Shown here: piece by piece, positions 41,525 to 64,000 of the stretch | Layout: every line of letters begins with the position of its first letter | How positions within the stretch are numbered: the first letter of the stretch is position 1 | DNA from: Pelagerythrobacter rhizovicinus | GTDB lineage: Bacteria; Pseudomonadota; Alphaproteobacteria; Sphingomonadales; Sphingomonadaceae | Direction: 5' to 3' | Assembly: GCF_004135625.1 (NCBI RefSeq) | Contig: NZ_SDPV01000001.1 | Location: 1,114,501-1,178,500 of the forward strand | Length of the DNA stretch: 64,000 nt | The notes under the pieces: generated by a model | The model's input: only the letters and a program-made list of their open reading frames with translations | Told to the model about the DNA's origin: nothing | Database searches by the model: none | Made by a program: the position numbers and the translations under genes

Positions 41525-43285
41525 ATGACCCAAGATCACTTGCGAGTTGGAAGGATCGAGGACCTTCAATCCTTGATCGACGTGATGCCTAACCCGGTGA
41601 TCGTGAAAAGCCGCGACCACAGGATTGTGCTGATCAATCGTAGCGCGTGCGCTCTTTTTGGCTACTCCCGCGAAGTCGTCGTTGGTTTCAGCGACCATGA
41701 TCTGTTTCCTGCCGAACAGGTCGCCGTATTCGAAGCAGCCGATAACCGCGTCTTCGACTCGGGACTGGTAGATGAGATCGAAGAGCAAATTACCGACGCA
41801 ACGGGCAACACGCGCACGGTCATTACCCGCAAGCAACGAGTTCGCCTGAACGGCCAGGACCTGCTCGTTGCAGTCATCACCGACATCACGGCCTATCGGG
41901 AAGCGGAGGCGCACAACCGCTATCTCGCCTTTCACGACGTGCTCACCGGGCTTCCGAACCGGGCACTGCTCAACGAGCGTATCGACCAGATCTTGCTCAG
42001 GATGCCCCGTACGCGGGCAAAATGTGCTCTAATCTATGTCGACCTCGATCGGTTCAAAGAAGTCAACGACACGTTCGGGCATCAAGCAGGCGACGAGCTC
42101 ATCCGCCAGTTCGCGAGCCGGCTCGGCACAATCGTGCGCGCATCAGATACGGCTGCGCGCCTCGGTGGGGACGAGTTCGCAATCCTGCTTCAGGATACCG
42201 CCGAGGGCCTATGTCCGGCGGAAGTATGCCAGCGTATCCTCGACGCCGCGGCGCGGCCTTTCACTTTGAGCGAGGGACAAGCTCACGTCAGCGCGTCGAT
42301 TGGCCTTATCGAATGTGAGAGCGGCGGGGCCACCCGTGTCGAACTTCATCAGCGGGCAGACATGGCCCTTTACCAGGCGAAGCGCGATGGTCGGGCCTGC
42401 TTTCGAATTTTCACCGCGGCCCTTGACCGAAGAATTCGTGATCGCCGACTTCTGGAATCCGAACTGCGCCACGCGCTGGTCACCGGCGACGGCCTGAAGA
42501 TCGATTATCAGCCGTTGTTCGAAACCCGCGGAGAGCGCCTAGTGGCCTTTGAAGCACTGGTGCGCTGGGAGCATCCTCGCCTGGGCCTTCTCCAGCCCGC
42601 AGACTTTCTGGACATCGCCGAAGAGTCAGGCCTTATCATACCGCTTGGCGACTGGGTGCTTGAGCGCGGCTGTCGGACACTCTCAGGCTGGCCCGAGGTC
42701 TCCCTAGCCGTCAATGTCTCCCCAGGGCAGCTTTCCAAGGACGGCTGGGTCGAACACGTCCTTGAGATTCTCCAGAATACCGGATTCGACCTTTCCAGGC
42801 TGCAGCTCGAGGTAACCGAGCATACCATTCTCGATCTGCCGGTCGCTGTCGAGAAGCTCAGGCAATTCCGTTCGGCCGGTATCAAAATCGTTCTGGACGA
42901 TTTCGGCACGGGGTATTCGAGCCTGTCCCACCTTCAGAAGCTTGCGATCGACAAGGTGAAGATCGACCGATCGTTCGTGCAGGATCTCGTGAACGAGCGC
43001 GAGTCGAAGGCCATCATCCGGGCGGTCACCAGACTGGGTCGATCGCTCGGCGTTTCGGTAACTGCTGAGGGCGTTGAGACTGAACAGCAGCGGAGCTTTG
43101 TGCGCGCGCTCGGGTGCGAGGAAATGCAGGGCTTCCTCCTCTCCAAGCCGCTCAGTGAGGCGGACACCATTGATCTATTGGAGCACCTTGCTCGTCAGGT
43201 CGTGCGAACCGGGACGCCTGAGCCAGGTGATAAGTCCTTCGAGCAAGGAACTTCACAACCAAGTCTACGTTGGCTTGGACAGTGA
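41525..43285 (+). CDS. PAS-GGDEF-EAL cyclic-di-GMP enzyme
   Basis: A 586-residue soluble protein. A PAS domain (about 13-125) precedes GGDEF (214-218) with the inhibitory site RASD (205-208), then an EAL domain: FEALVRW (E343), NVSPGQL, DDFGTGYSS (458-466) and TAEGVE (515-518). Both active sites look complete, so it could make or break c-di-GMP; the intact EAL residues favour phosphodiesterase activity tuned by GGDEF and PAS. It leads the signalling group and lies 16 nt before the FixJ-type regulator gene. No membrane helix. Confidence 0.92.
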   Translation: MTQDHLRVGRIEDLQSLIDVMPNPVIVKSRDHRIVLINRSACALFGYSREVVVGFSDHDLFPAEQVAVFEAADNRVFDSGLVDEIEEQITDATGNTRTVITRKQRVRLNGQDLLVAVITDITAYREAEAHNRYLAFHDVLTGLPNRALLNERIDQILLRMPRTRAKCALIYVDLDRFKEVNDTFGHQAGDELIRQFASRLGTIVRASDTAARLGGDEFAILLQDTAEGLCPAEVCQRILDAAARPFTLSEGQAHVSASIGLIECESGGATRVELHQRADMALYQAKRDGRACFRIFTAALDRRIRDRRLLESELRHALVTGDGLKIDYQPLFETRGERLVAFEALVRWEHPRLGLLQPADFLDIAEESGLIIPLGDWVLERGCRTLSGWPEVSLAVNVSPGQLSKDGWVEHVLEILQNTGFDLSRLQLEVTEHTILDLPVAVEKLRQFRSAGIKIVLDDFGTGYSSLSHLQKLAIDKVKIDRSFVQDLVNERESKAIIRAVTRLGRSLGVSVTAEGVETEQQRSFVRALGCEEMQGFLLSKPLSEADTIDLLEHLARQVVRTGTPEPGDKSFEQGTSQPSLRWLGQ

Positions 43286-50249: not shown

Positions 50250-52732
<2,483 letters not shown>

Positions 52733-59737: not shown

Positions 59738-61606
59738 ATGGCGCTTTCCCCCCAATGGCTGGATGAACTGCGGTCGCGCGTGACGCTTTCGGGCGTCATC
59801 ATGCGTACGACCAAGCTCCAGCGCGCAGGGCGCGAGTGGAAGGCGTGCTGCCCTTTCCACAACGAGAAGACGCCAAGCTTCACCGTCAGCGACGAGAAGG
59901 GATTCTATCACTGCTTCGGCTGCGGCGCGCATGGCGACGTGATCCGCTGGATGACCGACCAGCGTGGGCTTTCTTTCATGGACGCGGTGAAGGAACTCGC
60001 GGCCGAGGCGGGACTGGAAGTCCCCGCGCCCGATCCGCGTGCGGCGCAGCGGGCGGAGGAACGCGCGGGCCTGCACGATGTCACGCAGGCGGCGCAGGAC
60101 TGGTTCTCCGCCAATCTCGTGGGACCGGGCGGTGCGAAGGCGCGCGAGTACCTGCAGTCGCGCGGGTTCAACGCACGGACGGTCGAGCGCTTCGGTTTCG
60201 GCTTTGCGCCGAACGAACGGCAGGCGCTCAAGGCGGCGCTGTCGCGCTTCGAAGAGAAGTTGCTGATCGAAGCCGGTCTGAGGATTTCGGTGGAGGAACG
60301 CGATCCATACGACCGATTTCGGGGGCGCCTTATGCTGCCGATCCACGATGCGCGCGGGCGAGTGATCGCGTTCGGCGGGCGCATCCTCGAGGCCGACATC
60401 AACGCGCCCAAGTACCTGAACTCGCCCGACACGCCTTTGTTCGACAAGGGGCGCACGCTCTACAACCTGCATCGCGCCGGCCCCGCTTCGCGGCAGACGG
60501 GGCGGATGATCGTCGTCGAAGGCTACATGGACGTGATCGCGCTCGCGGCGCACGGGTTCGAGGATGCGGTGGCACCGCTCGGTACCGCTCTGACCGAGCG
60601 GCAGATCGAACTGCTCTGGCGCATGGTCGAGACGCCGATCCTGTGCTTCGACGGCGATGCGGCGGGGCAGCGCGCCGCCATGCGCGCGATCGAGCGGGCC
60701 CTGCCACTGCTCCGCCCGGCCCATTCGCTGGCTATCGTGCGTCTGCCGACCGGGCTCGACCCCGACGACCTGCTGCGGGCCAAAGGCAAAGGTGCGATCG
60801 AGAAACTGCTCGCCGAACCCGCAAGCCTGCTCGACACGCTGTGGGAATTCGAGCGCGCCGCGCAGCCGTTGAACACGCCCGAGGACAAGGCTGGCCTCAA
60901 GCAGCGCCTAGTTGATCACGTCGAGAAGATCGAGCATCCCGACATCCGCGCGCTTTACAAGCGAGAACTGCTGGAGCGCTTCTCCGCCTTCGCCTTCCCG
61001 CGCCGGGAGCGCACGCGCGGCGACTGGCGCAAACCGGTCGTGCCGCGACTTTCGCCCGAGGCGGCCCGGCGGCTGCGCGGCGCGCGAGACGGATCGCGTG
61101 ACCAACTCGTCTCCGCGGTGATTGCCGGATTGGTGCGCTTTCCGGAGGAAGCGCTGCGCCATGCGGAGCAGCTCGGACGCTTCGCGCAGATGGATGCGAA
61201 ATCCGGGCCACTGGTCGACGCGATACTCGAAGCGGTGGAAATGCTTGAACCGGGAGAGATTTTCCCCATATCCTCGTTCGACGGTCCCGTCGCGCCGCCG
61301 GATAACACCCGTTTCGCCTTCCTCAGTGAAGGCATCGATCCGCAAGACGCGCGCGAACAGTTGGCCGAAGCCGTGGCGCTGCTGGTCGAAAGGCCCGCGC
61401 TGGAAGCTGCGCTTTCCGCAGCGACCGCGCGGTTCGAAGTTGACCCTGAAGGAGCCTTCGCCGAGCAGCAGAGGCTGCTCAAACGAAAGCTGGAATTCGA
61501 GCGGCGACTCGGGCAAATGGCAAGCCGACGGGCTGCTTCGGCGGCCCAAACTGATTCAACGCGTCGGCGGGAGACAGGGCCCGCCAACGGCGCAGAAACG
61601 GACTGA
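59738..61606 (+). CDS. dnaG: DNA primase
   Basis: 622 residues. The zinc-binding module has Cys38, His41, Cys59 and Cys62 ([21 protein letters not shown]). The TOPRIM core follows with [11 protein letters not shown] and [11 protein letters not shown], and a C-terminal helical part contacts DnaB. It makes RNA primers at the replication fork. It is 58 nt after yqeY and 10 nt before rpoD, so the three form one unit. Confidence 0.97.
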
Positions 61607-61616
61607 ACGCACCTCC

Positions 61617-63650
<2,034 letters not shown>

Positions 63651-63660
63651 TTTCGACCTG

Positions 63661-63685
63661 GGAACCGGCCGCGCAGTCAGCCGTT
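63661..63685 (+). promoter_or_regulatory. EcfG-type general stress promoter after rpoD
   Basis: GGAAC (63661-63665), 16 nt, CGTT (63682-63685), starting 11 nt after the rpoD stop. The predicted start point is near 63692. A terminator follows about 60 nt later, before any gene. Confidence 0.75.
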
Positions 63686-63691
63686 ATTCGA

Positions 63692-63785
63692 GTCCAGACG
63701 ATGTAAAAATCGACTGGATATGAAGTTTCTCCCAGGAGAAGCTATCAGGAGCCCCGGTGCCTTACGGCGCCGGGGCTTTTGCTTT
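63692..63785 (+). ncRNA. Predicted stress-induced small RNA
   Basis: About 94 nt between an exact EcfG-type promoter and a strong terminator. Two hairpins are predicted: AGTTTCTC-CCAG-GAGAAGCT (63724-63743, 8 bp, tetraloop CCAG) and the 12-bp terminator stem. A CTCCC run lies in the first hairpin and could pair with ribosome sites. The only ATG inside (63720) has no ribosome site and its frame runs through the terminator, so a peptide is unlikely. Transcription itself is inference. Confidence 0.55.
63750..63785 (+). terminator. Strong rho-independent terminator
   Basis: AGCCCCGGTGCC (63750-63761), loop TTAC, GGCGCCGGGGCT (63766-63777), then TTTTGCTTT. Twelve pairs with one wobble. Confidence 0.9.
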
Positions 63786-63885
63786 GCGCCTCCCGCGGCG
63801 CCTCAAGCAGGCCGCCTTTCCAGCCCGTCGGGGACAAGGCCGGTTTGCGGTGGCGACATGGCGCGGGAATCACTATGGGGACGCC

Positions 63886-64000
63886 ATGCGTATCGCCATT
63901 GCCTCTGACCATGCTGCCATCGAGATGAAAGCCGCCCTGCGCGAGTGGCTGATCGAAGAGGGCCATGAAGTCGCCGATCTCGGCCCCGATAGCCACGACA
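63886..64000 (+). CDS. rpiB: Ribose-5-phosphate isomerase B, N-terminal part (continues beyond window)
   Basis: 38 codons are visible, starting MRIAIASDHAAIEMKAALRE and reaching DLGPDSHD. SDHAA with the sugar-phosphate-binding Asp and His is the RpiB/LacAB signature. GGGGA precedes the ATG. It converts ribulose-5-phosphate and ribose-5-phosphate. Confidence 0.88.
   Translation, partial: MRIAIASDHAAIEMKAALREWLIEEGHEVADLGPDSHD

Follow-up and report, generated by a model that had tools for sequence, protein, structure and literature searches.

A candidate EcfG-controlled small RNA behind rpoD in Pelagerythrobacter rhizovicinus, with relatives across Sphingomonadaceae

Directly behind rpoD, P. 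rhizovicinus probably encodes a small RNA of the general stress response. We propose, with a probability of roughly 85%, that it is a stand-alone, EcfG-dependent non-coding RNA of ~90 nucleotides, which would be transcribed from its own promoter after rpoD and would share its terminator with that gene. The stand-alone reading draws on a conserved promoter, a covarying structure, independence from neighbouring genes, the lack of a conserved open reading frame (ORF), and a nepR-ecfG pair preceded by the same promoter motif. An earlier note on this DNA had put forward a candidate EcfG-driven small RNA after rpoD; in relatives the promoter is conserved together with the RNA and the hairpins covary, which bears the proposal out. 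From this comparative evidence, the stress RNA is very probably real and absent from Rfam. Rfam 15 gave no covariance-model match up to E 1 in window positions 61000-64000, and across 19 member loci nothing up to E 0.1 other than a neighbouring tRNA.

The locus in P. rhizovicinus

The window is the whole stretch of DNA that was analysed, 64,000 nucleotides long; the features of the locus are collected in Table 1. The rpoD stop codon, TGA, occupies 63648-63650, and GGAAC starts 10 nt further on. A 16-nt spacer separates GGAAC from CGTT (promoter 63661-63685), so the exact GGAAC-N16-CGTT motif previously reported after the rpoD stop is indeed present. This motif is described as the EcfG promoter consensus of Sphingopyxis granuli TFA (PMC7083833).

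Table 1. Features of the rpoD-rpiB region in P. rhizovicinus (window positions)
Feature	Position	Strand	Remark
rpoD (housekeeping sigma-70)	61617..63650	+	Upstream neighbour; Sigma70 domains
-35 box GGAAC, EcfG-type promoter	63661..63665	+	From sequence; GGAAC in 32 of 33 members (GGAAG in L095)
-10 box CGTT	63682..63685	+	CGTT in 28 of 33 members; others CATT (4), TGTT (1)
Predicted small RNA, ~90 nt	63691..63780	+	Start inferred from -10 box, end from terminator
Hairpin H1	63692..63719	+	TCCAG / CTGGA stem; predicted fold; 9 of 11 pairs changed on both sides in some member
Hairpin H2	63724..63743	+	Loop CCAG in host; pairing kept, sequence not
Linker AUCAGGA	63744..63750	+	Most of conserved UCAGGAG ahead of terminator; partial pairing with U tail
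Intrinsic terminator	63751..63780	+	Stem GCCCCGGTGCC / GGCGCCGGGGC plus TTTT
rpiB	63886..64000	+	Downstream neighbour, runs past window end; PF02502

Positions 63690-63785 are predicted to fold into three hairpins, the last of which is the terminator, at -55.6 kcal/mol (z = -8.4; none of 200 shuffles as good). The apical loop of H1 reads GUAAAA (63703-63708). A terminator with a T-run had been claimed at this place and both parts stand, but the core measures 11 bp (63751-63761 with 63766-63776), not 12, with weak pairs extending to the T-run at 63777-63780. This terminator apparently also terminates rpoD. The CTCCC segment of the earlier description, and with it the CCAG loop, proved to be specific to the host: three aligned congeners read CTCTC.

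Both BLASTN and covariance models find the RNA as a single copy in the host genome, at C1:1178190. Exact GGAAC-N16-CGTT motifs number 22 in the 3.0-Mb genome, compared with 17 for a reversed control. This count is near chance, and from the window alone the motif could be a chance occurrence. The motif by itself is no proof; the proof is that relatives conserve it at a set distance from an RNA whose pairs covary.

Two further copies of the motif in the window stand ahead of other genes. One, at 51620-51644, lies ~74 nt ahead of a Lys/Ala-rich ORF that starts at 51718 and has no Pfam match; on this sequence, the ORF is a plausible EcfG target. The other, at 43247-43271, lies upstream of what by eye appears to be a response-regulator gene.

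Relatives, structure and promoter conservation

A BLASTN search with a 143-bp stretch matched 7 of 59 genomes: besides the host, these were three congeners, two genomes from other genera, matched at rpoD, and a genome in which only the terminator matched. Two covariance models followed, R2 (the transcript without its promoter, built from six sequences) and R3 (20 sequences). At E 0.01, R2 had hits in 79 of 397 family genomes, most of them weak. At E 5e-4, R3 matched 37 of 397 family genomes, 24 of which hold a counted member; among 396 order genomes it matched 28, and 17 of these hold one. The family and order draws overlap. The single match among 337 class-level genomes was the host genome itself. 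The large searches scored about ten candidates per genome under strict filters, so absence from a genome is weakly shown.

Named rpoD loci, 80 in all and drawn with a query that had been translated out of frame, were searched as well. R2 was strong there only in Pelagerythrobacter aerophilus (L008), and R3 matched 6 of the 48 genomes behind 48 of these loci, two of them at places already counted (P. aerophilus in group A and Sphingomonas flavalba in group B, as defined below). The rpoD-linked form of the RNA is a minority. R2 also gave a weak match of 24.9 bits in Novosphingobium flavum (L051; 25.6 bits with R3). Directly after the rpoD stop, this locus carries GGAAC-N16-CGTT, then a stretch that resembles a hairpin and a terminator whose sequence differs; it may encode, in this same position, a stress RNA that has diverged or is of independent origin.

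We inspected 56 hit loci (30 via R2, 26 via R3), set 23 aside (L107, L108, L110-L117, L121-L123, L126, L135, L137-L143, L145) and kept 33, which represent 19 genera of Sphingomonadaceae. L139 went uncounted because its GGAAC-N16-CGTT lies within a badly placed match, and L140 because it touches a contig end. L109 (32.7 bits) stayed in on account of its promoter, H1 and linker, though it scores below the dropped L107 (34.0) and L108 (32.9); L124, L125 and L127 were likewise kept despite scoring under 45 bits. Four of the 33 members thus fall under the score cuts given below and were retained partly for the promoter. The member count excludes weaker R2 and R3 hits without a locus, as well as L161-L163.

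By eye, the members split into two groups. Group A comprises 17 loci from 10 genera, including the host locus, with an H1 loop that is mostly GAUGUAAAAAUC-like and a linker that is mostly UCAGGAG. Group B comprises 16 loci from 10 genera, one of them in common with group A; its loop is mostly AUCGAAAGA and its end mostly GGGGCUUAC. The loop type is GUAAAA-like in A and CGAAAG-like in B.

Structure is conserved beyond sequence. When 20 members were aligned by sequence only, 87.0% of cells in H1 and the terminator were paired, against a shuffled mean of 77.1%, and versions of this structure slid along the alignment reached at most 43.1%. In the same alignment, 13 of 22 pairs had changed on both sides in some member, nine of the 11 pairs of H1 among them. 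A model-fitted alignment, which leans towards structure, gave 19 of 29 such pairs and extended the result to H2 (8 of 9 pairs). The covariation between species that the earlier note had proposed to look for is thus found in the hairpins.

The ends of the RNA vary. U tails are short, and group B has no T-run; its RNAs (L106, L129 and L132, for example) seemingly end in GGGGCUUAC instead, an ending that is itself conserved. Within the terminator stem, position 63757 is mismatched with 63770 in 16 of 20 members, the mismatch being kept on both sides: A-C in 13 of the 16 rows from group A, C-A in three of the four from group B.

Neither R2 nor R3 contains the promoter, so its presence is a largely independent test; the earlier note had named loss of the promoter in relatives that keep the terminator as counting against its proposal. 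A loose EcfG-type promoter lies 26-31 nt ahead of the modelled start in all 33 members; the motif is exact, as in the host, in 26, and the spacer measures 16 nt in 31. Among 6073 windows in the members' own flanks, the loose motif occurred 16 times (0.26%) and the exact one three times. Across the 33 members, the promoter boxes stand out from the spacer. CATT and TGTT, the variant -10 boxes, are among those of promoters reported to be transcribed in vitro with S. granuli EcfG (PMC7083833).

The promoter also tracks the score. GGAA[C/G]-N16/17-[C/T][G/A]TT preceded the modelled start by 29-31 nt in 20 of the 30 R2 loci and was missing from the other 10; among the 26 further R3 loci, 13 had a motif of this kind between -26 and -30, and 13 lacked it. 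With cuts of 36 bits for R2 and 45 bits for R3, chosen after the lists were seen, the promoter was present in 19 of 19 R2 hits with a locus (13 of 13 outside the six that built the model) and in 10 of 11 new R3 hits, the exception being L135. Taken by score alone outside the R2-building sequences, 23 of 24 loci had it. A second RNA copy in one genome (G013; 36.7 bits with R2) carries the exact motif too. A promoter at a fixed distance in every member, against 0.26% of background windows, together with covariation in H1 and H2, makes a chance motif beside the rpoD terminator scarcely credible, despite the near-chance motif count in the host genome.

Coding potential does not share this conservation. 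A 62-aa ORF begins within the RNA at 63720 and is conserved in no relatives. A small-peptide gene or dual-function RNA could nevertheless be read into an ATG between H1 and H2, found in 15 of 17 group A members and some of group B, and into the AUG with an immediate stop codon in the group A H1 loop (window 63701-63706 in the host; 14 of 17 members). However, frames, lengths and stops vary, many group B members have no such ATG, and the conserved feature is the pairing. We consider a coding role very improbable and rejected the small peptide on account of its unconserved reading frames. The AUG-stop in the loop is probably loop sequence rather than coding.

Genomic neighbourhoods

In all 17 group A loci, rpoD lies upstream on the strand of the RNA, within the 1.5-kb flank in 16 and 4.4 kb upstream in the seventeenth (G095). 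Twelve of the 17 start within ~70 nt of the rpoD end, and in the window sequence no terminator was seen between the rpoD stop and the small-RNA gene. Both observations fit an RNA cut from the 3'UTR of the rpoD mRNA, for which the EcfG promoter would be additional or of little weight. Against such an origin, rpoD and the RNA are parted by a reverse-strand gene in L096 (cold-shock domain, CSD) and L099 (GNAT acetyltransferase) and by an opposite-strand ORF in L100; G095 keeps rpoD at a distance; none of the 16 group B loci has rpoD in its 1.5-kb flanks; and the promoter is present throughout. We regard derivation from the 3'UTR as unlikely, though in the host the RNA could possibly be made from both the rpoD mRNA and its own promoter.

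The downstream side is equally variable. In the host, rpiB follows on the same strand, as a leader or attenuator of a downstream gene would require of its neighbour. Elsewhere the downstream genes vary and run in the opposite direction in at least six loci, where genes with Pfam support point towards the RNA (L125, L128, L130, L131, L132, L134); the neighbour in L094 has no Pfam match. A strong terminator-like stem moreover closes the unit. A leader has next to no probability on this evidence, and an rpiB leader was rejected for the orientation of neighbours elsewhere. Separating reverse-strand genes and converging neighbours together imply that the RNA is not only an rpoD 3'UTR and not a leader.

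Position has also suggested a function. The earlier note found the place beside the housekeeping sigma gene suggestive, and all 17 group A loci are indeed downstream of rpoD on the same strand, as one might expect if, under stress, the RNA paired with rpoD mRNA and so damped the housekeeping sigma factor. In the host genome, however, no tested segment paired with the rpoD leader clearly better than with shuffled leaders (fractions 0.065 to 0.495), and group B is located elsewhere. The suggested link to rpoD regulation thus found no support, and we consider damping of this kind improbable.

The RNA is missing from 3 of 7 genomes of the genus Pelagerythrobacter. By eye, one of these congeners (G005) has a PAS-like frame after rpoD, and the other two (G002, G006) run straight to rpiB. 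In the G013 genome (L164), two RNA copies lie between rpoD and rpiB. Copy 1 is followed by an EcfG-type motif, a kinase of the PAS-HWE type and a response regulator with a single domain; then come copy 2, with its own exact motif, and rpiB. HWE/HisKA2 kinases are described as coordinating the general stress response (PMC12148442).

General stress response and known systems

The host genome encodes the regulators that the stand-alone reading calls for: NepR (PF18557, 60.5 bits) and, directly behind nepR, an ECF-type sigma factor, the pair being preceded by GGAAC-N16-CGTT. The two genes lie at C2:612981, apart from the RNA. The host Hfq gene (L171, C1:1046336-1046761) encodes two Hfq domains in one reading frame.

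We propose that, under general stress, EcfG-RNA polymerase would transcribe the RNA from the promoter just after rpoD, and that transcription would end at the terminator common to both. From its 5' end, the product would consist of a hairpin whose purine-rich loop is conserved, another hairpin, the linker with AGGAG, and finally the terminator. We infer from the promoter that EcfG drives the RNA in cells, where, acting in trans, it may form a post-transcriptional branch of the general stress response. Base-pairing with mRNAs, with or without Hfq, would most likely involve either the H1 loop, which is exposed, or the AGGAG linker.

In the host genome, the complement of the H1 loop, TTTTTACATC, has no copy outside the RNA gene, leaving no long unique target in view. 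As an antisense target of the loop, TTTTTACATC was tried and rejected: of 12 genomes searched, eight contain it, six of these at the RNA gene and nowhere else. A different mode of action, unlikely but conceivable, is a stress-made decoy whose purine loop and AGGAG linker bind a protein, such as the two-domain Hfq; the rpoD-rpiB interval would then be a second general-stress locus, where RNA copies sit together with kinase and response regulator. If so, the partner would be that Hfq or another RNA-binding protein, not a long mRNA site. Under either mode, a conserved RNA with an EcfG-type promoter offers a deletion target, a bait with which to capture its partners, and a covariance model for searching other genomes.

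In the open-licence literature, which leaves most subscription journals outside, we found no description of this RNA. The terms sRNA and small RNA are absent from the main text of two sphingomonad EcfG regulon papers, which treat EcfG and protein genes.

Two known small RNAs invite comparison. MicL of E. coli is a 3'UTR small RNA that has a stress-sigma promoter to itself, placed at the 3' end of a gene to which it is unrelated and whose terminator it shares, and GsrN of Caulobacter crescentus activates katG by pairing. The RNA described here resembles MicL in this placement, in its own predicted stress-sigma promoter and in the shared terminator, but its promoter lies after the stop codon, and in some relatives genes part the RNA from rpoD.

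GsrN is described as being under an EcfG-type sigma factor, with an exposed C-rich 5' loop and BLASTn hits confined to Caulobacteraceae (PMC5869019). Its relatives often lie near general-stress genes, typically ecfG-nepR-phyR, C. crescentus itself being an exception (PMC5869019). EcfG-type control, predicted here, and exposed loops are common to both RNAs, and the G013 copies near a kinase and a response regulator recall the GsrN relatives near stress genes. Unlike GsrN, the H1 loop is GUAAAA-like or CGAAAG-like rather than C-rich, the RNA is not near ecfG-nepR-phyR, and group A follows rpoD. GsrN-like RNAs were also predicted in Rhizobiaceae from their expression, their promoter and a location close to the stress locus, and were described as having a C-rich 5' loop (PMC5869019); compared by description only, these share the promoter class. 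The family occurs in a group whose example, Erythrobacter litoralis, has no apparent gsrN-like gene according to the Figure 9 legend of the same paper (PMC5869019). As far as predicted control goes, the RNA would work like GsrN, and it is best called a new family among EcfG-controlled small RNAs, set apart by loop and position from GsrN as known by description.
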